Positions 1-41,575 of a DNA stretch of 41,575 bases are shown piece after piece (position 1 is the stretch's first letter; every line of letters begins with the position of its first letter). This stretch comes from a virus: positions 1 through 41,575 of IMG/VR virus record IMGVR_UViG_3300029286_000102; one strand, 5' to 3'. The translations under genes and the position numbers were made by a program. Under the pieces are notes generated by a model that searched no databases, was not told where the DNA came from, and saw nothing but the letters and a program-made list of their open reading frames with translations.

Positions 1-148
1 CGGAGGGTTAAAACTAAATTAAACATTGGAGTAATTACCTGAGAGGGTAATTTTTTTATCATAACGGGGTTATTCATACCTCATTAAAAAAATGAACTGA
101 AACATTTATGACAGAAGAAGAAAAAAAAGCAGCTGAAGCAAACGCTCT
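1..148. repeat. Terminal redundancy, left copy
   Basis: The first 148 bases recur at 41428-41575. Bases 24-148 match exactly; the outer 23 bases differ at positions 3, 9 and 22. The repeat shows the contig closes on itself, giving a unit of about 41,427 bp. It spans a terminator and the first codons of the scaffold-like gene, so it is not a tidy packaging end by itself. Either an assembly overlap of a circularly permuted genome or a short direct terminal repeat would explain it. Confidence 0.95.
33..57 (+). terminator. Intrinsic terminator-like hairpin before the scaffold gene
   Basis: AATTACC (33-39) pairs perfectly with GGTAATT (46-52) around a six-base loop, followed by a run of seven T (51-57). 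It lies 50 bases upstream of the gene at 108, inside its leader. This favours an attenuator role over a plain operon end. The second copy is at 41460-41484. Confidence 0.75.
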
Positions 149-632
149 TGCCACTGCACAAGAGGAAGAGAAGAAAAAGAAAGAAGCCGAAGAAGCGAAA
201 GCTTCAGAAGCTGAGGCAAAAATCACAGCACTTGAAGCTGAGAAGAATGCCATTCTTGAGAGAGAAGCAAATTACAAACTTGCCTATCTTAAAGAGAAAA
301 AGAAAAATGAGGGACTTGACCCTGTTAATGAAACTGAGGAAGAACGTGTCCGCCGTATCACTCGTGAAGAACTTGCTAACGCACGTCTTGGCGAAATTGA
401 TAAGGAAAAGGAGGAGTTGTTCCAAAAGACAATAAAGGAAAACAAGGAACTCAAACTAGCTATTCAAAATAAACCGACCAATCAATCAACAGGTGCAGGT
501 GGTTCAACAGAACAACCTATCGTAGTAAGCACAATCGTTACTCCTGAACAAATCGCTGCTTTCAAGGCACGAGGATGGACAGAAAAGGACATTGAACGCT
601 ACAAACGAAACCTTCAGAAAAATTCTAGGTAA
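108..632 (+). CDS. Probable scaffolding protein
   Basis: The 174-residue product is dominated by a charged Lys/Glu/Ala coiled coil (about residues 1-120). A short polar linker rich in Gln, Thr and Gly follows, then a compact basic C-terminus with many Lys/Arg (about 145-174). This layout is typical of phage head scaffolds: a coiled-coil body with a basic tail that contacts the capsid protein. It lies between the portal group and the major capsid gene, as scaffolds usually do. The start ATG follows an A-rich leader with no Shine-Dalgarno. Assignment rests on composition and position; no catalytic protease motif was seen. Confidence 0.65.
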   Translation: MTEEEKKAAEANALATAQEEEKKKKEAEEAKASEAEAKITALEAEKNAILEREANYKLAYLKEKKKNEGLDPVNETEEERVRRITREELANARLGEIDKEKEELFQKTIKENKELKLAIQNKPTNQSTGAGGSTEQPIVVSTIVTPEQIAAFKARGWTEKDIERYKRNLQKNSR

Positions 633-642
633 TATATTTTGA

Positions 643-668
643 AAAGCTAGGATTATTCACCTAACTTT
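643..668 (+). other. Intergenic hairpin
   Basis: AGCTAGG and CCTAACT form a seven-pair stem with one mismatch around an eight-base loop, between the scaffold-like and decoration-like genes. There is no T-run after it, so mRNA processing or stability is more likely than termination. Confidence 0.35.
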
Positions 669-678
669 ATAAAAATAT

Positions 679-1164
679 ATGTCTATAGGAGATATCGTAA
701 TAAAAGACCAGTCTGTAATGGCTGGCATAGGTGCTCGCAAATACTTAGTTGCGGCTAGTGCCACTCTTATTTATCCTGGTGAGCCTGTCACAAAAGCACT
801 TGGTGCAGCTGTGGTTACTCCGATGGCTACAAATAAGCCTGTGGTTGCTACTGACTTCTTAGCTGGTATTGCAGCTACACAATCCACAAATGACGCTGCT
901 AATGCAGGGGAAGTGTGGGTTTACCCTCTTGTTCCTGGTGTTGTTTACTTAATGAAGCCAAATGTCGCCGCTTCATTTGATACTCAAGCTGAGTATGACG
1001 CATTAGTTGGTGACAGAGTTTTAATTGACCTTACTTCTGGTGATTACACAATATTAGCAACAGATGGTGCAACCTCAGGTTGTGTCATTGAAGCGCTTGA
1101 TGTTGCTAAGTATCCTGGTTTGGTTGCGTTTTCGTTCCGTAATGGAGTTTCATACCTTGCCTAA
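679..1164 (+). CDS. Capsid decoration-like protein
   Basis: The 161-residue product is rich in Ala, Val, Gly and Thr and looks all-beta, with no charged coiled coil and no membrane segment. It resembles the DUF2190-like/decoration proteins that often sit directly upstream of a Mu- or HK97-type major capsid gene; the spacing to the capsid gene here is 47 bases. A role on the capsid surface is inferred from position and composition. The start follows TATAAAAATAT, the A+T-rich pre-start pattern seen throughout this genome. Confidence 0.55.
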   Translation: MSIGDIVIKDQSVMAGIGARKYLVAASATLIYPGEPVTKALGAAVVTPMATNKPVVATDFLAGIAATQSTNDAANAGEVWVYPLVPGVVYLMKPNVAASFDTQAEYDALVGDRVLIDLTSGDYTILATDGATSGCVIEALDVAKYPGLVAFSFRNGVSYLA

Positions 1165-1176
1165 TCGGTGAGGTAT
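1152..1176 (+). other. Hairpin at the end of the decoration-like gene
   Basis: ATACCT (1152-1157) pairs with AGGTAT (1171-1176), with further inner pairs. It overlaps the stop codon region and is followed by TTTGTG, a weak T-run. It may set the ratio of decoration to capsid mRNA. Confidence 0.4.
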
Positions 1177-1211
1177 TTGTGTTATTATTAATCTAATTTT
1201 ATAAAAATTAT

Positions 1212-2147
1212 ATGTTTACAGAAGCTCAAAATTTTAGCATCGTGCAAACTGAATTGGACAAAGTGTTCTTTCAACAGTTTGATTACGATGAGACGTTTCC
1301 TGGTGTAGCTCACGCTACCACTGGCGAGATATTCAAGCCTCAAGACACAACTCACGCTGCTTGGATACAATCTATCAACAAAGGTTCTGGCTTGTTCCCA
1401 GCAATTGGCGAAACAGCAACAGTTCCTCTTTCAACTCCTGCGGTTAGAAACAAACAAACTACTCGTGTCCTTACCTTCGCTCAAGGTATTGATATTTCAA
1501 AGCAGTTGTTTGATGACAATATGCACGGAGTTTGGGCTGAGGATGTTCGTGATTTCGCTCAAAAAGCAAAGGACACTCAGGACTACAATGCTTTCCGTAT
1601 TTTCAGAAATGGATTTACGACTGAATTGACTGCTGATGGTGTTTCTTTCTTCAACGCTGCTCACCCATTAATTGGTGGTGGAACACAATCAAATGTGTTC
1701 ACTGGTGCTGGTTCAGTTTTGACTCCAACTTCTCTTAACACTGCAATGGTCAATCTTCTTGAACAGAAGGACCAATCAGGTGTTATTCGTGGTTCAAGTC
1801 CTGCTGTCTTGCTCGTCCCACCTTCATTGTGGAAGCACGCTCGTGAGATAACAGACTCAGCATTAATTGCTGATGTCGCAACAAACAATGTGAACGTTTA
1901 TCGTTCAGCATTGGGAATTACTGTGTGGACATCCCACTGGTTGGGTGCTGTCGCTGGTGGTTCTGACACTGCTTGGTTCTTACTTGCTAAGCGCCACGGT
2001 GTCACTCGTTTAATCCGTCAAGGACTTGAAACAGCCCTTACTGATTGGAGATATTCTAATAACCTCACATATAGGTATCAAGCAAACTTCCGTGAAGAAG
2101 TGTTTGTTGCTGACTATGCTGGTGCTGTTGGAAACGCAGGAGTTTAA
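1212..2147 (+). CDS. Major capsid protein (HK97-fold, Mu gpT-like)
   Basis: The 311-residue product has the character of the Mu gpT/HK97-like major head subunit family: an N-terminal helix, a region about half-way with FFNAAHPL followed by a Gly-rich loop, and a C-terminal part with LTYRYQANFREEV, resembling the usual closing beta strands. It forms the icosahedral shell. It follows scaffold-like and decoration-like genes and precedes the head-tail adaptor, the canonical order. Codon use here is slightly more G+C rich than in the early genes, as expected for a highly expressed gene. The length fits a capsid protein without an N-terminal delta domain, so scaffold is supplied separately. Confidence 0.85.
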   Translation: MFTEAQNFSIVQTELDKVFFQQFDYDETFPGVAHATTGEIFKPQDTTHAAWIQSINKGSGLFPAIGETATVPLSTPAVRNKQTTRVLTFAQGIDISKQLFDDNMHGVWAEDVRDFAQKAKDTQDYNAFRIFRNGFTTELTADGVSFFNAAHPLIGGGTQSNVFTGAGSVLTPTSLNTAMVNLLEQKDQSGVIRGSSPAVLLVPPSLWKHAREITDSALIADVATNNVNVYRSALGITVWTSHWLGAVAGGSDTAWFLLAKRHGVTRLIRQGLETALTDWRYSNNLTYRYQANFREEVFVADYAGAVGNAGV

Positions 2148-24110: not shown

Positions 24111-24279
24111 TACTTGGAAGTGTGAAATTTGTGGTGAAGAAAGACCAGATGAAGATATTAATGTTTTAACTTACCCATTAAAAGATTTACCAGGGGGTGA
24201 GAGGAATTTAAAATATTGTAATGATAATTTTGTTTGCCCTCAAAGAGCTTTTGAAAAATCAAAAACAGGTAAGGTGTGA
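24103..24279 (+). CDS. Small zinc-finger protein
   Basis: ATG 24103 overlaps the previous stop by eight bases and opens a 58-residue frame. CEICG near residue 7 and YCNDNFVCP near residue 39 form a four-Cys zinc site. The stop TGA overlaps the GTG start of the HNH gene by four bases. This fits a regulatory or partner protein for the HNH nuclease. The function is unknown. Confidence 0.6.
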   Translation: MINTWKCEICGEERPDEDINVLTYPLKDLPGGERNLKYCNDNFVCPQRAFEKSKTGKV

Positions 24280-24665
24280 AGAAATATCCATCTTATATAA
24301 AAAATCTTAAAATGGCGGTTTGGATTAGGGATGATTTCAGATGTTTTTATTGTGGTATTCAAATGTTTGATTTGTATCAAAAATGGTTAAGAGGGGAAAT
24401 AAAAAGGAAACAAGCATTGCTTACTGTTGACCATCTTGTGCCTCGTTCTTTGGGTGGGGAATGGCGATTAGATAATCTAGTGACTTGTTGTCGTTTTTGT
24501 AATCTTAAGAAAGGTAGTAGTATTTATGTAAATGAAAGGTTGAAAAAGAAATTAGATTTTTTAGATAATTGGTATAAAAAAAATGAACCTACAAAACCCA
24601 TTTCCACAAAACGTCCGCTTATTGTTTCTATACGTTCATTCTTGTTTTCAATGTGGAAGAAGTGA
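24276..24665 (+). CDS. HNH endonuclease
   Basis: The 129-residue product has the full HNH fold signature: CFYCG, then VDHLVPRSLGG with the catalytic His, Asn in the next helix (DNLV), and CCRFCN. It starts with GTG, overlapping the upstream TGA. It could cut DNA at packaging, in recombination or as a free-standing homing enzyme. The basic C-terminus suggests DNA binding. Being in a nuclease cluster, a replication or packaging role is plausible. Confidence 0.8.
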   Translation: MKKYPSYIKNLKMAVWIRDDFRCFYCGIQMFDLYQKWLRGEIKRKQALLTVDHLVPRSLGGEWRLDNLVTCCRFCNLKKGSSIYVNERLKKKLDFLDNWYKKNEPTKPISTKRPLIVSIRSFLFSMWKK

Positions 24666-24882
24666 TAGAGGTTTAGAGCTACACCATATCGTTGGAAGAA
24701 GTTCAAACTCTGCTTTCAATGCTTGTCCTTTATGTAAAGAATGTCATTCTCACATAGGTCATACACAAGAAGAAGAAAGGAAGTTATTTGAATATACATT
24801 TAATTTTTTATTAAACGAAAAGTTTTTGCCAGATGATGACGATTATCAATTTTTAAGAAACAATAAACATTTAATATTATGA
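24583..24882 (+). CDS. Second HNH-like nuclease
   Basis: The 99-residue product has CFQCG, LELHHIVGR with the His pair, and CPLCKECH, a short HNH/recombination-type nuclease. The ATG overlaps the first HNH gene by 83 bases in another frame. NPFPQNVRLLFLYVHSCF at the start agrees with similar phage genes I recall. The end overlaps the VRR-NUC gene by four bases. Confidence 0.65.
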   Translation: MNLQNPFPQNVRLLFLYVHSCFQCGRSDRGLELHHIVGRSSNSAFNACPLCKECHSHIGHTQEEERKLFEYTFNFLLNEKFLPDDDDYQFLRNNKHLIL

Positions 24883-25208
24883 AAAAAATTTTGGAGAAGG
24901 ACATACAACTTTGTATTTGTGATTATTTTGCTTTAAAGAAGTATTTTTTTTGGCGGCAAAATACAATTCCAGCAGTTGATTATAAAGGTGGAAAAATGAT
25001 ATTTAGACCAATGCCTAAATATTCTTTAAGAGGTGTGCCTGATATAATCCTTATAGACAAAGGGGGGAAAATTATTTTCATAGAAGTTAAAAGACCAGGG
25101 GGAAAGTTAAGTGAAGCACAGATTGAATTTAAAAAGATGTGTGATAAAGTCGGTGCAACATATATGGTTGCTTATTCACTTGACGATATTATCAAAGCTG
25201 GGCTATAA
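24879..25208 (+). CDS. VRR-NUC domain nuclease
   Basis: The 109-residue product has RGVPDIILI (about 50-58) and FIEVKRPGGKLSEAQ (about 67-81), the Asp and Glu-x-Lys of the VRR-NUC type PD-(D/E)XK fold. The length fits a stand-alone VRR-NUC protein, thought to act on branched DNA. With two HNH enzymes and an exonuclease it forms a DNA-processing set. Confidence 0.8.
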   Translation: MKKILEKDIQLCICDYFALKKYFFWRQNTIPAVDYKGGKMIFRPMPKYSLRGVPDIILIDKGGKIIFIEVKRPGGKLSEAQIEFKKMCDKVGATYMVAYSLDDIIKAGL

Positions 25209-25216: not shown

Positions 25217-25474
25217 ATGCCTAATATTAAACAAAAATCAATAATTAAGTTAACTCCTCATCCTACTTTGGTTGAAGAATTACAAAAACAAATAATAAAA
25301 AATGGTGGTCTAAAAATCACTGGTTTTGGTATGTTCAAACTTAAAAGAACAAAGGGGTCTAAAAATGCTTTGAACCCTTACAGTCAGAAAAGACAAAAGT
25401 TCTCGCCTAAAACAAAGGTCAGTTTTAAGCCTGTTAAAAGCTTTAAAGAAAAAATGCAAAAATGGAAACCATAA
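25217..25474 (+). CDS. HU/IHF-like DNA-binding protein (short)
   Basis: The 85-residue product has GFGMFKLKRTKGSKNALNP and VSFKPVKSFKE, resembling the beta-arm region and C-terminus of HU/IHF proteins (GFGTFKV...NP...F.P.K...). The N-terminal helices are shorter than in standard HU. It may bend DNA in packaging or in the action of the DNA-modifying genes. The start lies eight bases after a TATAAT, so the mRNA may be leaderless or nearly so. Confidence 0.55.
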   Translation: MPNIKQKSIIKLTPHPTLVEELQKQIIKNGGLKITGFGMFKLKRTKGSKNALNPYSQKRQKFSPKTKVSFKPVKSFKEKMQKWKP

Positions 25475-25938
25475 ATTGGAAAGCAGAAATAAGAAAATTG
25501 AGTGATTTAAAAAACTGGGAAAAAAATCCAAGAAAAATCACAAAAGAAGCGTTTGATAAATTGAAAGAACGTATTTCAAAGCGTGGCTTTCACGATGTTA
25601 TTAAACTTGATACTGAAAACAATGTGCTATCAGGAAACCAACGAAAAAGGGCTTTGATTGATTTAGGAATTAAAGAAGTGAATGTTTTAGTGCCTGATAG
25701 GGAACTTACAGAAAAAGAGAAAAAAGAAATTGTTCTTGAAAGTAATTTAGATGACGGAGTTTGGGACTTTGATATTTTAGCGAATGAATTTGAGATGGAA
25801 ACATTAAATGAGGTTTCATTTCCTGATATGAGTATGTTTAATGCTGAAGGGGGTGAAGATGAACAAGGAAAATTAGATGAGTTTAAAGAAAAAGAAGAAA
25901 TAACTTGCCCTGAATGTGGTCATACATTCAGACATTAA
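25462..25938 (+). CDS. ParB-like N-terminal domain protein with zinc motif
   Basis: The 158-residue product has NPRKITKEAFDKLKERI, GFHDVIKLD and LSGNQRKRAL, the ParB/Srx nucleotide-handling domain (about 20-100). A helical linker and C-terminal CPECGHTFRH zinc site follow. In phages such genes often neighbour DNA modification genes and may act as CTPase-like or specificity factors. It overlaps the HU-like gene by 13 bases and precedes the Mom-like gene by two bases. Confidence 0.75.
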   Translation: METINWKAEIRKLSDLKNWEKNPRKITKEAFDKLKERISKRGFHDVIKLDTENNVLSGNQRKRALIDLGIKEVNVLVPDRELTEKEKKEIVLESNLDDGVWDFDILANEFEMETLNEVSFPDMSMFNAEGGEDEQGKLDEFKEKEEITCPECGHTFRH

Positions 25939-25940
25939 TT

Positions 25941-26549
25941 ATGGATGTTAAATTAAAACTTGATTGGGCTAATCATAAAGCAACAGTGTTTGCTTGTAAA
26001 AACTGGCATTATTCAAAGTCAGTCCCAGCAGGAAAACTTGTAAAAATAGGAGTTTGGGAAAATGACATCTTTCGGGGTGTCGTTTTGTTTTCAAGGGGAG
26101 CAAATAAATCAATCGGTTCACCTTATAAATTAAATCAATCACAAGTTTGTGAACTCACAAGGGTTGCTTTAAATTCTCATATTACACCAGTCACAAAAAT
26201 CATTTCAATTGCTTTGAAAATGCTTAAAAAGTTTTGCCCTGAATTAAAGTTGGTTGTTTCGTATGCTGATGTTGACCAAGGACACGAGGGGAAAATTTAT
26301 AAAGCAGGAAATTGGATTTATGAAGGATTGTTTAATGCTGGAACAATGGGGGCATTTATATTTAAAGGAAAAAAGACACATCCTAAAACAATTCATTCAA
26401 TGTATGGGACTGGTTCACAACGGATTGAGTTCTTAAAGAAAATTGACCCAAATGTTTCAGTGTTTATCACAAAGGGCAAGCACAAGTTTTTATATGTGCT
26501 AGACGAAGGAATTAGGGAGAGTATAATGAAAGGTATCAAGCGTGTGTAG
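25941..26549 (+). CDS. mom: Mom-like DNA adenine modification protein
   Basis: ATG 25941 gives 202 residues. ACKNWHYSKSVP (about 18-29), GVVLFSRGA (about 45-53), CELTRVAL (about 69-76) and SYADVDQGHEGKIYKAGNW (about 113-131) match what I recall of the GNAT-fold Mom family of phage Mu, which turns adenine into N6-carbamoylmethyladenine. If so, the protein hides phage DNA from restriction. Upstream ParB-like and HU-like genes may help. The stop overlaps a tRNA-like gene. The assignment is from memory of the family, so a profile search is the test. Confidence 0.65.
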   Translation: MDVKLKLDWANHKATVFACKNWHYSKSVPAGKLVKIGVWENDIFRGVVLFSRGANKSIGSPYKLNQSQVCELTRVALNSHITPVTKIISIALKMLKKFCPELKLVVSYADVDQGHEGKIYKAGNWIYEGLFNAGTMGAFIFKGKKTHPKTIHSMYGTGSQRIEFLKKIDPNVSVFITKGKHKFLYVLDEGIRESIMKGIKRV

Positions 26550-26610
26550 TTTAGTGGTAAAACGCCTTTATTCCATAAAGGTATCGGGGGTTCAAATCCT
26601 ACCCACACGC
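26540..26610 (+). tRNA. tRNA-Gly(UCC)-like gene with T-stem bulge
   Basis: A cloverleaf can be drawn: acceptor GCGTGTG (26540-26546) with CACACGC (26604-26610), D-arm 26549-26563, anticodon stem CCTTT/AAAGG with loop ATTCCAT and anticodon TCC, and T-loop TTCAAAT (26591-26597). The T-stem needs a bulged A (26601). CCA is not encoded and the discriminator is A. It overlaps the end of the Mom-like gene by ten bases. It reads as a functional or degenerate tRNA-Gly, or a former attachment site. Confidence 0.7.
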
Positions 26611-26644
26611 ACAATTTTAAGCCAGTTTGTCCACAGCCAGCTGG

Positions 26645-27547: not shown

Positions 27548-28187
27548 TTGTTTTAAAAATTCTGAACAAATATTGATTGATATAGGTGAATTAATACCAA
27601 TGCTTGATATTGAATTTACTGATGATAAAGATGAAAAATCAACTGTTGCAGTTGTATTGGCTACAGGTGAAAGTAAACAAGTTCGGGATACGTTCATTAG
27701 AGGTCTTGGTTTAACTTTTGGTTTAATAAAACAAACGGGAAAAATCAAAGAAGTAAGATGTGTTGCAATGATGTCAGAGGGTTGGTTTTCATCTTTACCA
27801 AAAGGTTCAGATATTTCAAAAGCCCCATTACCTTCACAAGACCCAAATAGACGTGAAATGCTTATTGCTACTGGTTTGACTGCTGACGGAATTTGTTTAA
27901 TGAGAGCAAAAGAAATGTTTAGTGTTGAAGTAAAAGGAAAAAGACATTTTACTTTGAATGATTTACCTGAAATGAATAAAGGATTTGATGACGGAAAAGC
28001 AGAGTCAAATGTTTTAAATAACTTTTTTGATGGCTATAAAAAACCAGCAGAAAAATCACAAGAACTTGAAATGTTTAAAAATGTGTTTGCTAGTTTTTCA
28101 CTTGATGAAATACTAGAAAAATCAATTAAAGTATTAACCCAACGAGTCGGTGGGCTTAATAGCGAATTTATTAATTATAAAAAATAA
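27513..28187 (+). CDS. Protein of unknown function before the MoxR-like ATPase
   Basis: The 224-residue product is alpha/beta, with a centre reading VVLATGESKQVRDTFIRGLG and an acidic helical N-terminus. It shares a one-base overlap with the MoxR-like ATPase, so it probably belongs to the same complex. I do not recognise the family. It might be a client or regulator of the ATPase; this is inferred from adjacency alone. Confidence 0.5.
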   Translation: MKKEELKIKIDNCFKNSEQILIDIGELIPMLDIEFTDDKDEKSTVAVVLATGESKQVRDTFIRGLGLTFGLIKQTGKIKEVRCVAMMSEGWFSSLPKGSDISKAPLPSQDPNRREMLIATGLTADGICLMRAKEMFSVEVKGKRHFTLNDLPEMNKGFDDGKAESNVLNNFFDGYKKPAEKSQELEMFKNVFASFSLDEILEKSIKVLTQRVGGLNSEFINYKK

Positions 28188-29110
28188 TGATGTTAGAAAA
28201 GAAAATTGAGTGGTTTAAGGTTTCAAAAAGAATTTCATTACCTAAAAATAGGGAAATAGTTGACCCTAATTTTATACCGAAGGAAATTGTTTTTGAAGAT
28301 AATAAAAAGGTTATGGAACAAGTGTCAGTTGCAATAAGTTATAAAATGCCTGTGTTATTGATTGGGGAAACAGGCACGGGAAAAACATCCCTTGTCAGAC
28401 ATCTAGCGTTTTCAACTCAAAATGCCTTTGTGCGTGTTAACCATAACGGGGGAACTACGATTGAAGATATTGTTGGGCGTTGGATTATTAACTCAAACAA
28501 TCAAACTGAATGGGTTGACGGAATATTGATTGAAGCAATGAAAAAGGGTTATTGGTTTTTGGCGGATGAAATAAACGCTGCTGGAGCTGAAATCAACTTC
28601 GTTTATCACTCCTTATTGGATGATGACGGACGTGTGATACTTGCTGAAAAGGGCAATGAAGTGGTAATACCACATCCTAATTTTAGGTTTTTCGGTGCAA
28701 TGAACCCACCAACTGAATATGCAGGAACAAAGGACTTGAATAAAGCTTTGATGTCCCGATTTATGGTGGCTCGTGTTGATTTCCCACCACCAAAAGTAGA
28801 ACAAAAGATTTTGGTCACTCGTTCAAAAATTACAGATGATGTTGCTGAACGAATGGTTAGATTTGCAGGTGAAGTAAGAACAATGCACGCCAATGAACAA
28901 ATACACTTCGTGTTATCAACTCGTGATTTATTGATGTGGGCTACAATGTTCAGAGTTTATAAAAAGTATTTAGTCAGTGCTGAAATGACTGTGTTAAATA
29001 AAATCGGACAAGATGATTTTGACGCAATTAAAGATATAATGGCGCTTCACTTCAAAACACAAGATAGCAATACGAAAACAGAAAGTGAAGAGGAAGAACC
29101 ATCTTTTTAA
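28187..29110 (+). CDS. MoxR/CbbQ-type AAA+ ATPase
   Basis: The 307-residue product has a Walker A GETGTGKT (60-67), Walker B YWFLADEIN (122-130), sensor-1-like GAMNPP and an Arg-finger-like SRFMVARVDF. This layout fits MoxR/CbbQ/NorQ AAA+ ATPases, which remodel partner proteins together with a VWA protein. A VWA gene follows two genes later. In phages such pairs resemble CobS/CobT-like modules of uncertain function. It overlaps the previous stop by one base. Confidence 0.85.
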   Translation: MMLEKKIEWFKVSKRISLPKNREIVDPNFIPKEIVFEDNKKVMEQVSVAISYKMPVLLIGETGTGKTSLVRHLAFSTQNAFVRVNHNGGTTIEDIVGRWIINSNNQTEWVDGILIEAMKKGYWFLADEINAAGAEINFVYHSLLDDDGRVILAEKGNEVVIPHPNFRFFGAMNPPTEYAGTKDLNKALMSRFMVARVDFPPPKVEQKILVTRSKITDDVAERMVRFAGEVRTMHANEQIHFVLSTRDLLMWATMFRVYKKYLVSAEMTVLNKIGQDDFDAIKDIMALHFKTQDSNTKTESEEEEPSF

Positions 29111-29114
29111 TTTT

Positions 29115-29309
29115 ATGACTATCAAAGAACTTATAGAACAATTAAATAAGTTTGGTGAAGATGAAGAAGTTTGTATTTCAGGAGACCCCGAAGGCAATGA
29201 CATAAGGACACTTTCTTATGTCAGCCTTGAAGGGCTTGGAATATATGAAGACCCTGACAAAGATATACAAAAGGTCGTAATTTATCCAACAGATGAAATT
29301 TTAAATTAA
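29115..29309 (+). CDS. Small acidic protein between ATPase and VWA gene
   Basis: ATG 29115 in an A+T-rich context gives 64 residues; the open frame begins upstream in the ATPase gene. The product is acidic, starts MTIKELIEQLNKFGEDEEV, and resembles small phage proteins with the pattern of a QLxxFxxDxxV start. Its place within the MoxR-VWA pair suggests it is co-expressed and may modulate the complex. Confidence 0.55.
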   Translation: MTIKELIEQLNKFGEDEEVCISGDPEGNDIRTLSYVSLEGLGIYEDPDKDIQKVVIYPTDEILN

Positions 29310-31333
29310 TGAGTAAAAGAACAAAAAAAAGATGGTTTAGTGATTGGGGTGGTTCAAACAACTTGTATAGTAAAACAATTGCTCAACACACAAAAAAATT
29401 AACTGAACAAAGATTATTTGATGAAGACGGATTTGAAATTTTACCTGAAGATGATTACAGTTATTCTTCTTATCACTGGGACTTAGACCAAAAATTGATT
29501 GGTGCTCCTGAAGCAAAAGACAAAAAGGAACGCTATGAAATAACAAAAACTGAATACGGCAATCAATACAGCACATATCAAAAAACAGGATATTGGGGTG
29601 GGTATTACAGACAACCACAATTAACTTATAAATATGTTCAACAGATGGCGAATACTTTATCTGCACAGCATAATATAAAAGTTGTGATTGGTAATAACTG
29701 GAATGTTGATTTATTACATAAAACACTCACATATAATCCTGCTTCATTGATTTACGGAACTAAAGCAGAATTACTTGCTACTTTAATGCACGAAATTGGA
29801 AAACTCCGATACGTGACTCATTCATCTTTATTAAGAAATAAATACATAATGATGTATGAACAACCAGCAAAAGAAGTTTTATCTGTGTATGAAGATTTGA
29901 GAACTGACTATTTAATGTTGAAGGCGTATGAAAGTGCTTCTGAAATATATGAGTCAGTAATCCCAACAGTTGAAAAACAAGTGAAAGGTTATGTTGATTA
30001 CGGAAAATCATTTAGACAACTTGTTGAACAAATACCTAAAAATGTTTATCAACAAATAATTTCAAATCACACTGACTCAATGTCAGACCACAATGTTCAT
30101 CCTGATGACCCACAATTGAAAGAACAACTATTAAAAACATTTGGAACAAGTGAATTAGATAAAGTAGAAGCTGGGCTAAAAGAAATTCAAAATAAAGCCA
30201 TAACAACTGGAAGTATTTATGAATACTGCGGTGAAATGTTGTCAGTGATGTATGACCTTGATGAACAAGGACATCAGAAGTTTGATAACATTAAAGAAAA
30301 GGTTGAAAAGACAATTGATACAATTGAACCTTCAAAAAAATTAAATGAGTCACAAGAATTATCTGATTATCTTGATAGCACAACATATCCAATTATTGAG
30401 GATTTATTGAAAGACGCTAAGAAACAAAATGACGCTATACAACAAGCATTTCCACAAATGCCTGAACAAATAATGAAACAGATAATGCAAGGCATTAATA
30501 ACAATCTTGGACGAGGTGGTCAAAAAGGTGTAAATGTTGACCAAGACGAGAATATGAACACTCGTAATTCAGGGCAAACAACATCCACAGTTCCACCTGA
30601 ATGGCAGGATGGTGACTATAAAACGCTCAAGGACAGTGTTTCTATGGAAATTAAGCAATTGGTCAATCGGCTCACATTTCTACGCAGGGAGGAGCTTACA
30701 GTGCGATATGAGGGCGACCAGAAGCGAGGCAAGCTTCATTCAAAGAAACTTTACAAGGTTTCACACGGGTCAAGACGATTATTTAAGAGAAAACTTGAAA
30801 ATACGGACACAATTAGGTCATTTGCCTTTTCAGTCCTTTTGGATGTATCAGGCTCAATGTCAGGGGCAAGAATTACACATTGCACACGAGCATTAATAAT
30901 TTTGGCTGAAGTGTTTAAGAAAATGGATATACCTTTTGAATTGATTACATTTTCCGATGGTGCAAAGACAATCAAACCTTTTGCAAAAGAAATTGACAAA
31001 AATATGGAAAAATCAATTGGTGGATTAGTTAAGTATTCAGGTGGTGGAACTAACCTTGATAGGGGTCTGGATGAGTCAAAAATACACTCACAAGCCGAGA
31101 AAAACAAAGTTGTGATAGTTCTTACGGATGGGGGTGTTGGTGATATGAAATGGTTTGACCGAACATACTTTATTCCTTGGTTAAAAAAGGGTATAAAATC
31201 TGTTGTTTTCGGTGTAGAATGTGAAAGTGAAATGAAAAATCTATGTATGGGTAATAGCCGATTGCTTGATAATGCTTCACAATTACCTGTTGAGTTTAGT
31301 AATTTATTGAAATCATTAATTAAAAGAAAATAA
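29309..31333 (+). CDS. VWA-domain protein, MoxR partner, with degenerate HExxH
   Basis: The 674-residue product has a C-terminal VWA domain with MIDAS residues DVSGSMSG (about 512-519), a Thr in SGGGTNLDRGL and an Asp in VLTDGGVGD. In the N-terminal half, HEIGKLRYVTH (161-171) looks like a zinc metallopeptidase motif whose second His is Lys. YEDLRTDYL follows about 40 residues later, as in CobT-like/DUF2201 proteins. It would bind metal through MIDAS and deliver substrates to the AAA+ partner. Its start overlaps the previous stop by one base. Confidence 0.8.
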   Translation: MSKRTKKRWFSDWGGSNNLYSKTIAQHTKKLTEQRLFDEDGFEILPEDDYSYSSYHWDLDQKLIGAPEAKDKKERYEITKTEYGNQYSTYQKTGYWGGYYRQPQLTYKYVQQMANTLSAQHNIKVVIGNNWNVDLLHKTLTYNPASLIYGTKAELLATLMHEIGKLRYVTHSSLLRNKYIMMYEQPAKEVLSVYEDLRTDYLMLKAYESASEIYESVIPTVEKQVKGYVDYGKSFRQLVEQIPKNVYQQIISNHTDSMSDHNVHPDDPQLKEQLLKTFGTSELDKVEAGLKEIQNKAITTGSIYEYCGEMLSVMYDLDEQGHQKFDNIKEKVEKTIDTIEPSKKLNESQELSDYLDSTTYPIIEDLLKDAKKQNDAIQQAFPQMPEQIMKQIMQGINNNLGRGGQKGVNVDQDENMNTRNSGQTTSTVPPEWQDGDYKTLKDSVSMEIKQLVNRLTFLRREELTVRYEGDQKRGKLHSKKLYKVSHGSRRLFKRKLENTDTIRSFAFSVLLDVSGSMSGARITHCTRALIILAEVFKKMDIPFELITFSDGAKTIKPFAKEIDKNMEKSIGGLVKYSGGGTNLDRGLDESKIHSQAEKNKVVIVLTDGGVGDMKWFDRTYFIPWLKKGIKSVVFGVECESEMKNLCMGNSRLLDNASQLPVEFSNLLKSLIKRK

Positions 31334-34380: not shown

Positions 34381-34860
34381 ATGAATGAAGAAAAAACGCT
34401 GGCGGTTGAAGAGTTTTTGAAGGAAAGTAATGCAATTGAGGGTGTTTATGATGATGAGTCACTAGAATTTTCTTTAAAAGCTTGGGGGTATTTACTAGAA
34501 CAAAAAGAAATTACAATACCTGTGATAATGGGATTACATAGAATATTAATGCACAATCAAGAAATTCCATTGAAATACAAAGGACATTTAAGACAAATTC
34601 CTGTATATATTGGTGGACACGAAGCAATGAGTCATAAATTAATACCTACACGATTATCAACTCTTGCAATGAATATGTGGTTACATCCAAAGAATTGGAA
34701 AGAACATCACATTGAATTTGAGAAAATACATCCTTTTATTGATGGGAATGGGCGAACTGGGCGAATGTTGATGAATTGGGAAAGATTAAAGGTCGGATTG
34801 CCTTTGTTGATAATACACGAGGGCAATGAACAGTTTGATTATTATAAATGGTTCAAATAA
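34381..34860 (+). CDS. fic: Fic-family protein with N-terminal inhibitory motif
   Basis: The 159-residue product has the canonical Fic loop HPFIDGNGRTGR (117-128), which transfers AMP or another nucleotide group from ATP to a target protein. SNAIEG (16-21) matches the (S/T)xxxE(G/N) autoinhibitory motif located N-terminal to the Fic core. It could modify host or phage proteins early in infection. Only the inhibitory motif and core are visible; the target is unknown. Confidence 0.8.
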   Translation: MNEEKTLAVEEFLKESNAIEGVYDDESLEFSLKAWGYLLEQKEITIPVIMGLHRILMHNQEIPLKYKGHLRQIPVYIGGHEAMSHKLIPTRLSTLAMNMWLHPKNWKEHHIEFEKIHPFIDGNGRTGRMLMNWERLKVGLPLLIIHEGNEQFDYYKWFK

Positions 34861-34861
34861 A

Positions 34862-35302
34862 ATGAAAGTATTATTTTTAGACATTGACGGAGTTTGCAAT
34901 TGTGCAACTACTTCACAAAGACATCGTGGATTTATTGGTATTGACCCTTATATGGCTTTTATGATTGGTCAAATAACACTTGAAGTTCCCGATTTAAAAG
35001 TTGTGCTTTCATCATCTTGGCGACATAGTAAGGATGGGCTTGATGAAGTTCGCAGTCAGGTTGTTGATTTCATTGATATTACTCCAACAGGAATGTATAT
35101 TGATGGTGAACAAACATTAAGGGGTAGAGAAATACAAGAATGGCTTAATAAACATCCTGATGTTGAAAAATATGCAATATTGGATGATGATAGTGATATC
35201 TTATCAGAACAATTACCTAATTTCTTTAAAACATCTTGGCAAACAGGAATAACAGAAGAAATAAAACAAAATGTCATTAAACACTTCAAAAAAGAAAATT
35301 AA
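34862..35302 (+). CDS. HAD-like phosphatase or nucleotidase
   Basis: ATG 34862 gives 146 residues. FLDIDGVC near the start (DxDG), LSSSWRH (motif II-like) and YAILDDDSD near the end form the HAD core. It is of a compact, cap-less type common in phages. Possible roles are nucleotide or polynucleotide phosphatase. It begins one base after the Fic stop, so the pair may be functionally linked. It overlaps the next gene by 32 bases. Confidence 0.65.
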   Translation: MKVLFLDIDGVCNCATTSQRHRGFIGIDPYMAFMIGQITLEVPDLKVVLSSSWRHSKDGLDEVRSQVVDFIDITPTGMYIDGEQTLRGREIQEWLNKHPDVEKYAILDDDSDILSEQLPNFFKTSWQTGITEEIKQNVIKHFKKEN

Positions 35303-36024: not shown

Positions 36025-36423
36025 ATGAAGAAAAATGATGACAAACCATTAAATAATGGTGAAATAAAGGGAGAACGTAATGAAAAAGGACAAATAACTC
36101 CTGGTATGGTTCTTAATCCTAACGGAAAACCAAAAGGCACAAAGCATTTTGCTACATTGATTGGTGAAATGATTAAAAGGAAAATCAGTATGAAAGTTGA
36201 TGGGAAAGTAGTTGAAATGACTGTTGATGAAGCAATGGTGCAGGCAATGATAAGACAAGTCATTAAAGGTGATACAAAAGCATTTCAAGCATTAACAGAT
36301 AGACACGAAGGTAAACCTCATCAAACAATTGATATGGAAGTGTCTGAACCACCAATACCAATAATGCCATTAAAAAATAAAACGGGGAAAAAGCGTGTTC
36401 AGTCAGACGACAGCAACAACTAA
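36025..36423 (+). CDS. Terminase small subunit-like protein (DUF5681-type)
   Basis: The 132-residue product has NPNGKPKGTKHF (about 31-42), the NGxPKGxxN-type signature of DUF5681-like small terminases, then a helical body with TVDEAMVQAMIRQVIKGD. It would recognise phage DNA for packaging and stimulate the large subunit, which overlaps its end by 29 bases. The first 30 residues are Lys/Asn-rich and probably flexible. Confidence 0.65.
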   Translation: MKKNDDKPLNNGEIKGERNEKGQITPGMVLNPNGKPKGTKHFATLIGEMIKRKISMKVDGKVVEMTVDEAMVQAMIRQVIKGDTKAFQALTDRHEGKPHQTIDMEVSEPPIPIMPLKNKTGKKRVQSDDSNN

Positions 36424-37687
36424 AATTGAAGAAATGTCCCAACGTATCCGAATAGTCCAAGGAGGGACATCGGCTTCTAAAACGATTTCAATTCTCATAT
36501 ATTTAATTGCAATGGCTCAGACGGATGAAGTGCCTACACTCACTTCTGTTGTGTCTGAGTCATTTCCTCATTTAAGGAGAGGATGTATCAGGGATTTCCT
36601 GAATATAATGCAATATCATAAATACTTCAAAGATGCACAATGGAACAAATCAGAAAGCACATATACATTTGAAACAGGGTCAAAGATAGAGTTTTTCTCT
36701 GCTGACCAAGCTCCTAAACTCCGAGGGGGACGACGTGATAGATTATTTTTGAATGAAGCAAACAATATAAATCTTGAAGCATTTAACGAACTTGAGGTGA
36801 GAACCAAAGAGTTCATTTTTATAGACTATAACCCAACAACTGAGTTTTGGGTTTACAGTGATGTCTGTGGTTGTGGGATGGAAGGTTGTCACGGCAAAAG
36901 AACTGATACAGAACACATCATACTTACTTATTTAGATAATGAGGCATTAGACCAAGCAATCGTTGATAGTATTGAACAGCGACGTATGAACAAAGCTTGG
37001 TTTCAGGTGTATGGTTTGGGATTATTGGGTGAAGTTGAAACAAGGATATATAAAGGCTGGCAAATAATTGATGAAGTTCCTTTTGAAGCCCGATTAGAAA
37101 GGTTTGCTATTGACTTTGGTTATACAAATGACCCAACTGCAATCGTGGCTATTTATTATTACAATGGGGGCTATATTGTTGATGAAATTGCTTATCAGAA
37201 CGGATTGGTCAATAAACAAATTGCTGACATCATAAAAGCACAACCAAAACGTGTGATGGCGATTGCTGACAGTGCTGAACCTAAAAGCATTGATGAATTA
37301 CGATTAGAAGGAATTACTGTGTTGCCTTCAAAGAAAGGACCAGGAAGTATTTTGCAGGGTATTCAATTTGTTCAAGGGCAACAAATATCAGTCACAAAAA
37401 ATTCAATCAACATAATTAAGGAATACCGAAACTACGTGTGGATTACTGACAAAGATGGTAAGATAATAAATGAGCCTGACCATTTGTTTTCACATTCAAT
37501 GGATGCTATAAGATATGGCTTCGGTTCAATGAACAATCCTCAAAAACTTACAGCATTCACACATTACCCAAATTCAAATATGCCACGCAATAACATTGAC
37601 CCATTTCAAAAGATACCAACTGCTGACTTACCACCTGAATTAAAAGAGGAAAAAAAATTTGCATATACACACATACCTAAGCTATAA
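36395..37687 (+). CDS. terL: Terminase large subunit (PBSX-like)
   Basis: GTG 36395 gives 430 residues; ATG 36434 is a later alternative. Walker A-like GGTSASKT (23-30), Walker B RLFLNEANN (about 115-123) and nuclease motif FAIDFGYTNDPTA (about 232-244, with the metal-binding Asp) match PBSX/Terminase_3-type enzymes. It pumps DNA into the head and cuts concatemers. The extra N-terminal residues agree with homologues I recall (ATTKIEEMSQRIRIV). The overlap with terS is usual. Confidence 0.9.
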   Translation: MFSQTTATTKIEEMSQRIRIVQGGTSASKTISILIYLIAMAQTDEVPTLTSVVSESFPHLRRGCIRDFLNIMQYHKYFKDAQWNKSESTYTFETGSKIEFFSADQAPKLRGGRRDRLFLNEANNINLEAFNELEVRTKEFIFIDYNPTTEFWVYSDVCGCGMEGCHGKRTDTEHIILTYLDNEALDQAIVDSIEQRRMNKAWFQVYGLGLLGEVETRIYKGWQIIDEVPFEARLERFAIDFGYTNDPTAIVAIYYYNGGYIVDEIAYQNGLVNKQIADIIKAQPKRVMAIADSAEPKSIDELRLEGITVLPSKKGPGSILQGIQFVQGQQISVTKNSINIIKEYRNYVWITDKDGKIINEPDHLFSHSMDAIRYGFGSMNNPQKLTAFTHYPNSNMPRNNIDPFQKIPTADLPPELKEEKKFAYTHIPKL

Positions 37688-37720: not shown

Positions 37721-39751
37721 ATGAGCATAGTTACAAAAAGTGAAAGTGAAAAAAAGGTTGAAGCAGTTTTAATGCGAACCAATGTTGATAAAAAGGGACT
37801 CATCACTGATGAGGTTGCTCCGTATATTGAAACAGACCAACAATTATTAATATCACAAATGATATTAAAGCATTTCGTTTTGGGCACAGTAAATATGTAT
37901 ACTCCTCGTGTTGAGTTCAATGACTTGTCATTAATCAATCGTGACCAATATGACCAAATGTCATTTAATACCTATCAACCAAACAATGGTGAAGCATGGG
38001 AAGGCAATCCTCAATCTGCTTGGCGTTCACGTGCAATCAGACCTATTGTTCGTAATAAATGTATTTCAATAGCGGCTCACGCAACTGCACGATTAATCTT
38101 CCCTAAAATATTTGCATATAATAATCAATCAGATGAACAACAAGAAGCGGCTACAGTGATGGAAGATTTAATGGAATGGTCAGGCGATGTTAGTAATTAC
38201 CCTTTCGTTGCATTAATGCGTGTCATTACAGCAATGTCATCACCTGCTTCAATTGGGTTCACTGAATACGGGGAAGTATATCGCACAGTTAAAACTGAAA
38301 AGAATGTTGACGGAACTTGGACAGAAAAAAGAATACGTGATGAAGCCTATCCTTGTTTTATGGATGAGGTTGTCCCCGTATCACAATTATATATTGAAAA
38401 CTTTTATGAACCTGATATACAAAAACAAGGTTGGGTGATATGGCGTAAAGTTTATGCCTATTCAGATGCACAGGCAAAATATAACGGTGTGTATGACAAT
38501 TTCCAATTCATCCGTCCTGGTGTTCAAACAATTTATGATGACGCAAACAGACAATTTTATTATGTGTATGACCCAAATATGCGTTCAGAAGATGTTGAGG
38601 AAGTTATTTATTGGAACAAAAATCTTGACCTGAAAATCATAATGGTGAACGGAGTAATGTTGACCGATTGGAATAATCCAAATCCTCGTCAGGACAAATT
38701 ATATCCTTTTGACAAGTTTGGTTATGAACCAATCAATAATAGATTTTTCTATTACAAATCATTGGCGTTTAAATTACAGCACGACGCTGATATTGTGAAT
38801 ACTTTATACCAGATGATTATTGATGGAACTTATTTGTCTATATTCAAACCTATGGTAAATGTCGGTGGTGAAATCATTGCTTCTGATGTTATTGTTCCTG
38901 GTGCAGTTACAACATTGTCATCACCTGACGCTGACCTTAAAGCAATCAATGTTGGGTCAGATATTAGACAGGGAATGGAAACATTAAGTGCTGTTGAGAA
39001 ATCAATTAATGAGTCATCACAAGAACCTTTGCAATCAGGTATAAAAGACACAGGTTCACAAACAGCATACGAAATAAGTAAACTTGAACAAAATGCAAAC
39101 ACAGTGCTTGGGTTATTCTTGCAGATGATTGCTAAACACGTTAAGGATTTTGGAAAGTTGCGTGTCAGTGATATTGTGCAGTATTTGACCTTACCTGATG
39201 TTTCAAACATTACAGGCGACGCTGACCTTACATATAAAACATTCTTCTTAAAGGGAATGGAAAAATCAGGTGGTAAAAACAAAAAGATTGAATTTACAAT
39301 GAATGTTCCTGAAGAAATGTCTGAAGATGAATATATGGAAGCGTCATATAAGTTGAAAGAAGAAGAAGAAAGCAAAAATATGACAATATCAAAAGCAAAC
39401 CCTAAAATGTTCAGGGAATTGCAATATATGGTCACAGTTCATCCTGATGTATTAAACCCTCGTTCAGAAGACCTTGAAAGGGCTTGGGCAGTTGAAGACT
39501 TTGATAGAATGATTGCACATCCTGAAGTATTTGACGGAAAAGAAGCAGGCAAGTTATTGCTTGGTGCAAACCTTACAACTAAAAAGGATGTTGATAGATA
39601 CCTAACAAAAGAACCCCCAATGGGTGCAGAACAACCAATTGACCCTGCTACAGGTATGCCTAATGCTGGGAACTCACCGCTTAATGCTATGATGAAGAAA
39701 TCACCGTTATCCACAGGAAATAAAAATACACTTGCTAGTTTGGTCGGCTAG
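37721..39751 (+). CDS. Portal protein
   Basis: The 676-residue product has the size and composition of podovirus-type portals. It has a helical N-terminal stem region, IRPIVRNKCISIAAHATARLI (about 105-125) near the start of the wing, a long mixed body, and a C-terminal helical acidic part ending in a flexible Pro/Gly-rich tail. It follows terL and heads the head gene group. It forms the dodecameric DNA entry ring. The call rests on length, order and pattern. Confidence 0.75.
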   Translation: MSIVTKSESEKKVEAVLMRTNVDKKGLITDEVAPYIETDQQLLISQMILKHFVLGTVNMYTPRVEFNDLSLINRDQYDQMSFNTYQPNNGEAWEGNPQSAWRSRAIRPIVRNKCISIAAHATARLIFPKIFAYNNQSDEQQEAATVMEDLMEWSGDVSNYPFVALMRVITAMSSPASIGFTEYGEVYRTVKTEKNVDGTWTEKRIRDEAYPCFMDEVVPVSQLYIENFYEPDIQKQGWVIWRKVYAYSDAQAKYNGVYDNFQFIRPGVQTIYDDANRQFYYVYDPNMRSEDVEEVIYWNKNLDLKIIMVNGVMLTDWNNPNPRQDKLYPFDKFGYEPINNRFFYYKSLAFKLQHDADIVNTLYQMIIDGTYLSIFKPMVNVGGEIIASDVIVPGAVTTLSSPDADLKAINVGSDIRQGMETLSAVEKSINESSQEPLQSGIKDTGSQTAYEISKLEQNANTVLGLFLQMIAKHVKDFGKLRVSDIVQYLTLPDVSNITGDADLTYKTFFLKGMEKSGGKNKKIEFTMNVPEEMSEDEYMEASYKLKEEEESKNMTISKANPKMFRELQYMVTVHPDVLNPRSEDLERAWAVEDFDRMIAHPEVFDGKEAGKLLLGANLTTKKDVDRYLTKEPPMGAEQPIDPATGMPNAGNSPLNAMMKKSPLSTGNKNTLASLVG

Positions 39752-39789: not shown

Positions 39790-40194
39790 ATGTTATTATA
39801 TTCAAGATGGTGTGCATTAACTCTCCCTACACGAAATAAACTTGCTGAAATTTTCGGCATTGAAAAGAAAGGTGCAACTGAAGTTGCTTCCAATGTTGTA
39901 AAACACGATGGCTATTTAGTTGAAGACATTGAACAAGCAATGACTGTTGAAGCAATGCAGAAATATCTAAGTGCAGGAAACACTGATATATCTGAATTGT
40001 GGAATATGACAATTGATAAAATTGAAGGACGTGAAGTTGAAGGATTAACTTCATTACCTGAGAAAACTATGGCTGTATTGCCTGAAGAAGAAGCAAAGCA
40101 ATTCAAAAAGGAATACAAAGCACGAACAATTAAAACAAAAGTCGTAAAACCTAAAACCCCAAAAACAAATGCAAAAACAAAAACCAAGAAGTAA
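39790..40194 (+). CDS. Small head-region protein, function unknown
   Basis: The 134-residue product has a helical core (QAMTVEAMQKYL) and a Lys/Thr-rich C-terminal tail. It lies between portal and scaffold genes, which suggests a packaging or capsid accessory role. It overlaps the next gene by 26 bases. Confidence 0.5.
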   Translation: MLLYSRWCALTLPTRNKLAEIFGIEKKGATEVASNVVKHDGYLVEDIEQAMTVEAMQKYLSAGNTDISELWNMTIDKIEGREVEGLTSLPEKTMAVLPEEEAKQFKKEYKARTIKTKVVKPKTPKTNAKTKTKK

Positions 40195-40585
40195 AGAAGA
40201 AATATTAGAAGGTATGAAAAAAGTGCAGGAAGCAAAGCGATTGCGTGCTTTCGTAAAAGAAAAATTTTACCCTGCACTTATTTCTGCGACAACATCAATT
40301 GAAGATGCAAAGTTCCTACTCGGTGGCTTCTCAAATATGATGATGGAGTCATTCTTAGCGAAGATGAAGGAAACAAAATTTATTGAATTGAAACTGCACG
40401 AGAAGTTAGACAAAGCAAATCCTAATTACAAACAATTTGTTGAATTACTTGCTTTATTCTCAGATGAAACAATCTTCTCATCCCGTGAACTTGTTGAAGG
40501 AATGAAAAATGAAGTGCAAATGTTTATTGATAATGAAATGAAAGAAAGAAAATTGGAAACATTAAAAACTAATTTCTTAGATTAA
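40169..40585 (+). CDS. Helical head-region protein
   Basis: The 138-residue product is almost all helical and rich in Lys, Glu and Met (MKETKFIELKLHEKL). It may be a scaffold-like or portal accessory protein. It starts inside the previous gene and shares one base with the next gene's ATG. Confidence 0.5.
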   Translation: MQKQKPRSKEEILEGMKKVQEAKRLRAFVKEKFYPALISATTSIEDAKFLLGGFSNMMMESFLAKMKETKFIELKLHEKLDKANPNYKQFVELLALFSDETIFSSRELVEGMKNEVQMFIDNEMKERKLETLKTNFLD

Positions 40586-40821
40586 TGAATACAAACATTT
40601 TAAAAAAGTGCATAGATGAATTGAAAAAAGAAAAACCTGAAATACAATATGTTTTAGGTATGCTTGAAACTTTATATGAAATGCAACCACAAACCGCCAG
40701 CGTTTCAATAACTCCAACTCCTAAAAAAGAACCAAATAACAACATTGATGAAGCCGCTATGCTTGACGCTAAAGCGAAAGCGGCTCTTGATATTATAAAG
40801 GACACAGCACTACCAGAATGA
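40585..40821 (+). CDS. Small helical head-region protein
   Basis: The 78-residue product is helical with a Pro/Lys-rich middle (SITPTPKKEP) and an Ala-rich end (DAKAKAALDII). Its position between portal and scaffold suggests a structural or assembly role. Function unknown. Confidence 0.5.
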   Translation: MNTNILKKCIDELKKEKPEIQYVLGMLETLYEMQPQTASVSITPTPKKEPNNNIDEAAMLDAKAKAALDIIKDTALPE

Positions 40822-41300
40822 TAAAACAATTCATATTAAACTTAAAATTCGTAAAGGACAAAATTGCTGAAGCAGAAAAGCAAGGTGGTATTAAATCATT
40901 TCCATTGGCTCAAAAGGATGTCCTTGAAACAATGAATGATGATATTGACAAGAAAGCAGAAGAATTGTCCAAGAAGAAATTAAATGATTTACTTTCAGTT
41001 GTTGATTTAAGGAAAATTGTCACGTTAGATAAAGCAAGAGGTATTGTTTATATTGGTGGAATGAAAGCAGATGACGCACGACTTGCGAATTTAAAATCAG
41101 AAGCAGAATTTATTTTAGAGTCAGATTTATGGGATTTAATATCTGAAACACCAAAGGAACTTGCACAGCGTTCAATGTTTGTTTCAGGTGAAACACTTGC
41201 AGATATGGCGAAAGGAAAATCAATGCTTCATACTTTGTCAGTGCAGAAAAACATCATTGATACTTTCAAGGGATATGTTGGTAAAACACCAAACCCTTAA
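40818..41300 (+). CDS. Head-region protein, function unknown
   Basis: The 160-residue product is helical at both ends with a beta-rich centre (RKIVTLDKARGIVYIGGM). It overlaps the previous stop by four bases and precedes the scaffold leader region. It may be an accessory head protein. The family is not recognised. Confidence 0.5.
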   Translation: MIKQFILNLKFVKDKIAEAEKQGGIKSFPLAQKDVLETMNDDIDKKAEELSKKKLNDLLSVVDLRKIVTLDKARGIVYIGGMKADDARLANLKSEAEFILESDLWDLISETPKELAQRSMFVSGETLADMAKGKSMLHTLSVQKNIIDTFKGYVGKTPNP

Positions 41301-41318
41301 AAGTTTTCAACAGGACTA

Positions 41319-41345
41319 TTGCTTTACAAAAAAAAGTAGTATAAT
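41319..41345 (+). promoter_or_regulatory. Weak late promoter before the scaffold leader
   Basis: A perfect TATAAT (41340-41345) has only a weak -35 (TTGCTT at 41319-41324, spacer 15). TTTACGGG follows at 41367-41374, as in the portal leader. Confidence 0.45.
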
Positions 41346-41351
41346 AAAAAT

Positions 41352-41393
41352 ATGTATATTAAAAACTTTACGGGAAATTGGTCACTTGGATAA
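41352..41393 (+). CDS. Candidate leader peptide (13 residues)
   Basis: ATG 41352 opens a 13-residue frame reading MYIKNFTGNWSLG whose stop overlaps the first bases of the hairpin at 41391. A short peptide between a promoter and alternative RNA folds is the arrangement of an attenuator. Without a ribosome-binding signal this is inference. Confidence 0.35.
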   Translation: MYIKNFTGNWSLG

Positions 41394-41464
41394 TTATTCA
41401 AATGTCTAATTTGGTATAACCTTCTCCCGTAGGGTGAAAACTAAATTAGACATTGGAGTAATTA
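41391..41464 (+). promoter_or_regulatory. Long leader hairpin overlapping the terminator stem
   Basis: AATGTCTAATTT (41401-41412) pairs perfectly with AAATTAGACATT (41443-41454). The stem extends outward (41391-41400 with 41455-41464) with one GU and one mismatch, so the full stem covers 22 positions. Its right arm takes up 41460-41464, the first bases of the terminator stem (41460-41466). The two folds therefore compete: full hairpin against terminator. Confidence 0.6.
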
Positions 41465-41575
41465 CCTGAGAGGGTAATTTTTTTATCATAACGGGGTTAT
41501 TCATACCTCATTAAAAAAATGAACTGAAACATTTATGACAGAAGAAGAAAAAAAAGCAGCTGAAGCAAACGCTCT
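41428..41575. repeat. Terminal redundancy, right copy
   Basis: This repeats bases 1-148 with three differences in the outer 23 bases. It includes the terminator and, from 41535, the first codons of the scaffold-like gene. The right copy keeps the perfect hairpin arm (AAATTAGACATT); the left copy has one change. Confidence 0.95.
41460..41484 (+). terminator. Terminator-like hairpin (second copy)
   Basis: AATTACC (41460-41466) pairs with GGTAATT (41473-41479) and is followed by a T-run. It is the same element as 33-57, seen again because of the contig overlap. It lies in the leader of the scaffold-like gene. Confidence 0.75.

Follow-up and report, generated by a model that had tools for sequence, protein, structure and literature searches.

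The stretch of DNA analyzed here, called the window below, is the whole of IMG/VR virus record IMGVR_UViG_3300029286_000102 (positions 1–41575), the 41.6-kb genome of a tailed phage. Two of its properties concern us: the loss of short words corresponding to Type II restriction sites and a cassette in which a mom gene is joined to a tRNA-Gly gene. The mom gene (25914–26549, plus strand) encodes a Mom-family DNA modification enzyme with a GNAT fold, as judged by Pfam PF25680 (E = 1.3e-36, 126.6 bits against a curated cutoff of 27.1), PHROG 1384, and a fold match to Mom of phage Mu. Its predicted structure (pLDDT of 86.7) matches Mu Mom (8BV8) with a Z score of 18.7 and a root mean square deviation of 3.1 over 174 residues. 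Behind it, at Z 13, come ordinary acetyltransferases of the GNAT fold; a tRNA-dependent transferase was not conspicuous among the structure matches listed, which does not count as evidence against one. In one alignment, the position of catalytic Ser124 of Mu Mom lines up with a conserved Ser/Thr, which is Thr in the window. Directly 5′ of mom lies an open reading frame (ORF) with a ParB-N domain and no methyltransferase domain (25462–25938, plus strand); a ParB-domain ORF precedes mom at many other mom loci as well.

The 3′ end of mom overlaps a tRNA-Gly(TCC) gene (26540–26612, plus strand), so that the mom stop codon TAG (26547–26549) makes up positions 8 to 10 of the tRNA. This is the only tRNA that ARAGORN calls in the window at default thresholds. 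It scores 51.4 bits with Rfam RF00005 (threshold of 29) and 68.6 bits with R1, a covariance model of mom-adjacent RNAs introduced below, and it carries the glycine identity elements G1-C72, C2-G71, G3-C70, C35, and C36.

The missing words had been noticed in a preliminary description made by eye, which listed no GATC, GTAC, TCGA, GAATC, or GATTC, a single CATG at 37995, and GACTC and GAGTC as present, with GAWTC rather than GANTC being avoided. Exact counts over the whole window agree: 0 for each of the first five words, 1 for CATG (at 37995), and 18 each for GACTC and GAGTC. The suggested comparison of palindromes with a Markov model (here first order, both strands) confirmed the avoidance. 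So did the strictest null that we used, in which proteins and genome-wide codon usage were fixed and synonymous codons were reshuffled (51 genes, 36.5 kb of coding sequence, 200 shuffles). Under this null, coding DNA should contain 104.8 GATC (z = −14.3), 87.0 GTAC (z = −11.4), 78.1 TCGA (z = −11.3), and 63.8 CATG (z = −10.0) sites. For GAWTC, 0 sites were observed against 64.0 expected (z = −10.4), while GASTC was not avoided (35 observed, 26.5 expected).

The shuffle also revealed eliminated words that the preliminary description had missed. CCGG (19.4 expected), GGCC (16.6), and GGNNCC (28.8) are fully absent; CGCG occurs once against 13.6 expected; and GAATTC (11.6) and ATGCAT (10.3) are not found. 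For eight words (GATC, GTAC, TCGA, CATG, GAWTC, CCGG, GGCC, and GGNNCC), more than 15 sites are expected and the observed/expected ratio is below 0.1. The presence of AGCT, CTAG, TGCA, ACGT, and GCGC, also listed by eye, was correct, but GCGC (6 observed, 21 expected), AGCT (67, 160), and ACGT (43, 80) are depleted and CTAG is mildly low; TGCA is normal, and AATT, TTAA, and CAATTG are near expectation. Strong depletion of GTWAC (16, 52), GAGAC (3, 26), and GCATC (21, 58) had been overlooked; GTSAC is not depleted (50, 35.5). With z values of −4 to −14 for the synonymous shuffle, the avoidance goes beyond codon and composition bias. It leaves an absolute signature in codon choice: as had been pointed out, Asp before C is GAC (76 of 76) and Glu before TC is GAG (15 of 15), to which we add His before G, always CAC (38 of 38). 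A separate and unexplained observation is the enrichment of GACGC/GCGTC in the window (38 GACGC where the codon shuffle expects 25, and a 3-fold excess over the Markov model), which recurs at 2.8-fold in G018, a phage of another lineage.

The capsid gene (1212–2147, plus strand) was used as a query to find relatives, and 15 were recovered from IMG/VR, some of the records being fragments. The closest of them, L070 (1–6990, 7 kb), has a capsid 91% identical to that of the window. Like the window, it lacks GATC, TCGA, CATG, CCGG, GGCC, and GGNNCC and nearly lacks GTAC; over its 7 kb, it is further without GCGC, GGNCC, CTSAG, GCSGC, GGATG, GCATC, CCATC, and GAGAC, so that about 15 specificities are missing in all. 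For GANTC, however, L070 is the mirror image of the window: GASTC is avoided (0 observed, 11 expected), and GAWTC is kept (23 observed, 14 expected). The two sequences differ at 198 of 344 fourfold sites (58%) and yet have seven eliminated words in common. Their G+C contents are also far apart despite the capsid identity (45% in L070, 35% in the window). Elsewhere, the avoided sets vary. GATC, GTAC, CATG, and mostly TCGA are avoided in G009; GATC, CCGG, and GTSAC in G011 and G013; and almost no word in G010, G014, and G016. G018, a 14.8-kb fragment in which mom was not found, has nearly the avoided set of the window, including the W-only GANTC pattern, while mom-bearing G019 avoids both GAWTC and GASTC. 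Avoidance as a clade-wide trait was rejected, since the avoided sets differ between relatives.

To follow the cassette, we gathered 240 mom loci, drawing on both virus contigs and GTDB genomes; they formed 127 clusters below 80% identity. ARAGORN uses no information on mom. With its default settings, 16 of 127 clusters had a tRNA on the mom strand no more than 150 nt from the end of mom, and all 13 with a normal anticodon were Gly; as background, the rest of the sequence (1.01 Mb) held 11 tRNAs, which were of mixed type. Relaxed settings raised this to 42 of 127, with glycine in 31 of the 34 assigned anticodons. Model R1 was built from 22 mom-adjacent RNAs: 98% of cells are paired, two-sided changes are seen in 16 of 21 pairs, and covariation is 0.667 against 0.163 in shuffles. 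R1 matched at the mom end in 90 clusters, which together with ARAGORN makes 96 of 127. Across 48 control sources, it gave three weak matches (at least one of them an ordinary tRNA) besides three named mom-bearing phages. A model-free search for a 7-bp arm closing an NCC hairpin gave 95 of 127 after mom compared to 14, 5, and 7 in three other regions; the reverse strand, where a tRNA arm also reads as a helix, gave 35 of 127. When G1, C2, and U73 were required, the numbers were 89 after mom, 10, 1, and 0 in the controls, and 11 on the reverse strand.

What these RNAs conserve is uneven. Among the 90 model matches, U73 is kept in 87, G1-C72 and C2-G71 in all 90, G3-C70 in 89, and C35-C36 in about all, while translation features are mostly lost: U33 is kept in 27 of 88 and the T-loop TTC in 21 of 90 (lost in 69), and 38 of 90 are shorter than 70 nt with a collapsed D-arm. 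Since R1 was trained on 22 such RNAs, these figures lean to its consensus; of the 42 RNAs in the ARAGORN-called set alone, 38 have GCG and 39 have U73. Most mom-adjacent RNAs score below the Rfam tRNA threshold, which was passed by 2 of 11 sources of such RNAs. A tRNA-Gly or tRNA-Gly–like gene overlaps mom or lies just after it in L184 (1685–1757), L171 (1180–1252), L015 (3426–3499), and L216 (4603–4674). Shortened RNAs of 64 to 67 nt are found beside mom in L010 (3680–3744), L004 (10615–10681), L009 (4760–4826), L137 (6597–6662), and L300 (3561–3626). They have an acceptor arm, an NCC hairpin, and a T-arm with a bulged A, the D-arm being cut to a short stretch; ARAGORN does not call them, and those tested with Rfam (L010, L009, and L300) fall below its tRNA threshold. 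Named phages have the arrangement too. An annotated tRNA-Gly adjoins mom in Salinibacter phage B2_17 and, as tRNA-Gly(ccc) on the opposite strand, in Microbacterium phage Appa (L333, 1851–1925). In Arthrobacter phage Shade (Marthavirus; L332, 1795–1865), the mom stop is overlapped by a tRNA-Gly(TCC)-like gene that the annotation lacks. Among individual loci, L234 has the short RNA in two identical copies, and L002 (1304–2597) has two tandem mom genes followed by a single tRNA-Gly–like gene. Stop-codon recoding in the mom gene of L020 was considered and rejected, as the stops lie at the natural C terminus.

We consider it likely, with good confidence, that the phage has two layers of defense against Type II restriction, a purge of sites and a Mom enzyme with tRNA-Gly as its glycine donor. 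In the first layer, the phage would have passed again and again through hosts whose Type II restriction-modification systems covered about ten specificities, with selection against every cuttable site until the words vanished, mostly via synonymous changes in coding sequence. The loss of sites is seen directly in the sequence, and restriction is its best explanation. Selection by restriction is the sole fitting explanation that we found because many recognition words of known Type II enzymes are at zero, near-identical words (GASTC, GTSAC, and TGCA) survive, and the sets of relatives differ. Because the Type II word sets of relatives form a patchwork, they point to restriction by different hosts and not to a property of the phage family. 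Complete or near-complete elimination of sites has been described in about one-tenth of viral genomes and is essentially limited to orthodox Type II systems (Rusinov et al. 2018, PMC6286503). As a phage strategy, the loss of sites is thus known and widespread, and it is the number of specificities that makes the window an unusual, extreme case. In the second layer, which had escaped the preliminary description, Mom would modify adenines of the phage DNA, a function suggested by its family, and the tRNA-Gly overlapping the mom stop would most likely supply Gly-tRNA as the glycine donor.

Other origins of the site loss can be weighed against these data. Phages underuse palindromes on average, so avoidance might have arisen without restriction, through codon bias, dinucleotide bias, or general counterselection of palindromes. 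We give this practically no credence: the codon- and protein-preserving null still expects 17 to 105 sites where zero are seen, other palindromes (TGCA, AATT, TTAA, and CAATTG) are near expectation, and the words of the window are not avoided in close relatives whose proteins are similar. As a full explanation, such bias is refuted by the codon shuffle and the comparison with relatives. It is also very unlikely that the phage avoids the sites of a nuclease of its own with which it breaks down host DNA. The window does contain a VRR-NUC ORF and two small HNH ORFs (24276–25208), but these are short, belong to common phage types, and cannot cover about ten unrelated specificities; nor does a self-nuclease account for relatives avoiding other sets. 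A further possibility concerns the choice of sites. The motif of Mu Mom is SASNY. If a host cut GANTC (HinfI type) and Mom shielded GASTC on both strands, only the unprotectable GAWTC would be lost. We compared observed/expected ratios of words in protectable and unprotectable contexts using the Mu motif. Both strands of GASTC match the motif, and neither strand of GAWTC does (ratios of 1.35 and 0.00); the adenines of GATC, GTAC, and CATG never fall in the motif, and CCGG, GGCC, and CGCG have no adenine. In addition, mom-less relatives (G011 and G013) tend to avoid GASTC and GTSAC instead. However, TCGA is also missing where one strand is protectable (0 against 19.9 expected), GAGAC, of which one strand can always be protected, is depleted (0.11), the ratio for AGCT does not depend on the motif (0.34/0.47/0.40), and GTSAC without the motif is not depleted (about 18 observed, 10 expected). 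Mom-bearing G019 avoids GAWTC and GASTC alike, and G018, with no mom found, has the W-only pattern. Word by word, GANTC fits, GTNAC and CTNAG fit only superficially, and AGCT, TCGA, and GAGAC do not. Most tests therefore do not support Mom as the cause of the GAWTC/GASTC split, and we keep it as a weak, rather unlikely rival. The split is explained more simply by two enzyme specificities; GAWTC is a TfiI-type specificity and GAGTC a PleI-type one.

The nucleoside made by Mu Mom is purin-6-yl glycinamide (adenine-glycinamide), as named in the title of a paper by Swinton et al. (1983) that PMC3874153 cites. The donor of the modification appears unsettled in the literature consulted; one review supposes that an acyl-CoA, for instance glycyl-CoA, is used (PMC7824862). 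Since the Mu product is adenine-glycinamide and the mom-adjacent RNAs keep the glycine-charging determinants, glycyl-tRNA is probably the donor, as gene neighborhood and conservation suggest. The retention of charging determinants together with the loss of translation determinants is the pattern to be expected of a dedicated glycine donor. It seems probable that Mom takes its glycine from glycyl-tRNA and that most mom phages and prophages of the family carry a dedicated RNA charged by the host glycyl-tRNA synthetase and acting mostly outside translation. The tRNA-Gly might instead have nothing to do with Mom and either supplement translation or be left over from an insertion site, given that phages often carry tRNAs and that the window copy looks like a normal tRNA-Gly. 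Yet, across 127 mom loci, the 3′ end holds almost only glycine tRNAs, and U33, TTC, and full length are widely given up while the acceptor pairs and C35-C36 remain near invariant. Such RNAs are poor for translation and fit for glycylation, the bacterial glycine identity set being U73, G1-C72, C2-G71, G3-C70, C35, and C36 (PMC9976931). We consider this alternative improbable. No report linking Mom with tRNA was found in the open-access literature searched; an earlier subscription paper or preprint is possible.

Several observations weigh against the two-layer interpretation. On the side of restriction, no host or cognate enzyme was identified for the window phage, a search for its capsid in GTDB genomes gave no match, and about ten specificities are many for one host. 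The preliminary description had attributed the loss to long exposure to a host with several restriction systems. Restriction as the cause held up, and long exposure is plausible in view of the seven eliminated words common to L070 and the window despite their divergence at fourfold sites; a single multisystem host is not shown, as a succession of hosts, each with one or two systems, would produce an identical trace. On the side of Mom, the gene was not found in any of the 15 capsid relatives, some of which are fragments. The window mom was probably acquired; Mom may be recent and site elimination older. The window tRNA has A73 instead of the bacterial determinant U73 and retains the D-loop GG and T-loop TTC that a non-proteinogenic tRNA-Gly loses, along with a normal U33, so it could serve translation. 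Last, no tRNA adjoins mom in phage Mu, in phiEf11, or in several prophages; Mu and these prophages would need to draw on the tRNA-Gly of the host.

The loss of palindromes is genuine, goes further than first stated, and is of a known kind; it shows how much synonymous change restriction can bring about in the genome of a small phage. The mirror-image sets of relatives provide a natural record of the enzymes carried by their hosts. The mom–tRNA-Gly cassette is the more surprising result and matters more, for it offers a testable alternative in which an aminoacyl-tRNA is a substrate of DNA modification. If true, this would be tRNA-dependent DNA hypermodification with an RNA family of its own and would answer the question of the Mu Mom donor.

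The terminase large subunit (36395–37687, plus strand) has its nearest named relatives in Flavobacterium phages, at 42% identity. The ORF at 37721–39751 (676 amino acids), with a weak Head-tail_con match, is a probable portal and contains the genome’s single CATG (37995–37998). A Pfam scan of 46 window proteins, which covered all but a few small ORFs, turned up no phage methyltransferase that might guard other sites. A MoxR-type AAA ATPase (CbbQ-like) followed by a 674–amino acid VWA-domain protein (28187–31333, plus strand) forms a chaperone-like pair, here in a small phage, and a gene for a Fic-domain protein (PF02661) overlaps that of a HAD_SAK_2 phosphatase of the RNA-repair type (34381–35302, plus strand).

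Compared to known systems, the window resembles the phages of Rusinov et al. 2018 (PMC6286503) in that orthodox Type II words are eliminated to observed/expected values below 0.1; it differs in losing about ten specificities in one 41.6-kb genome that also has a DNA-modification gene, whereas that study saw hardly any site avoidance in phages that have a DNA-modifying hydroxymethylase. With Mu Mom, the window protein shares family (PF25680), fold, and anti-restriction DNA modification, but the identity is 18 to 21%, a ParB ORF stands upstream where Mu has com, and the tRNA-Gly that overlaps the end of the window mom is absent from Mu. In staphylococci, a non-proteinogenic tRNA-Gly feeds the Fem enzymes with glycine for the cell wall. 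The mom-adjacent family is alike in that charging is kept, translation features are lost, and the RNA would serve an aminoacyl-tRNA–dependent transferase, a role that Mom may fill; unlike the staphylococcal tRNA, these RNAs lie in phages beside a gene for a DNA-modifying GNAT enzyme, are often 64 to 67 nt long, and have a bulged A in the T-stem. TacT-type toxins (PMC9976931, PMC9241777) likewise use a GNAT fold to act on Gly-tRNA, as is proposed here for Mom, but TacT acetylates the glycine on the tRNA, whereas Mom would move it to adenine in DNA.

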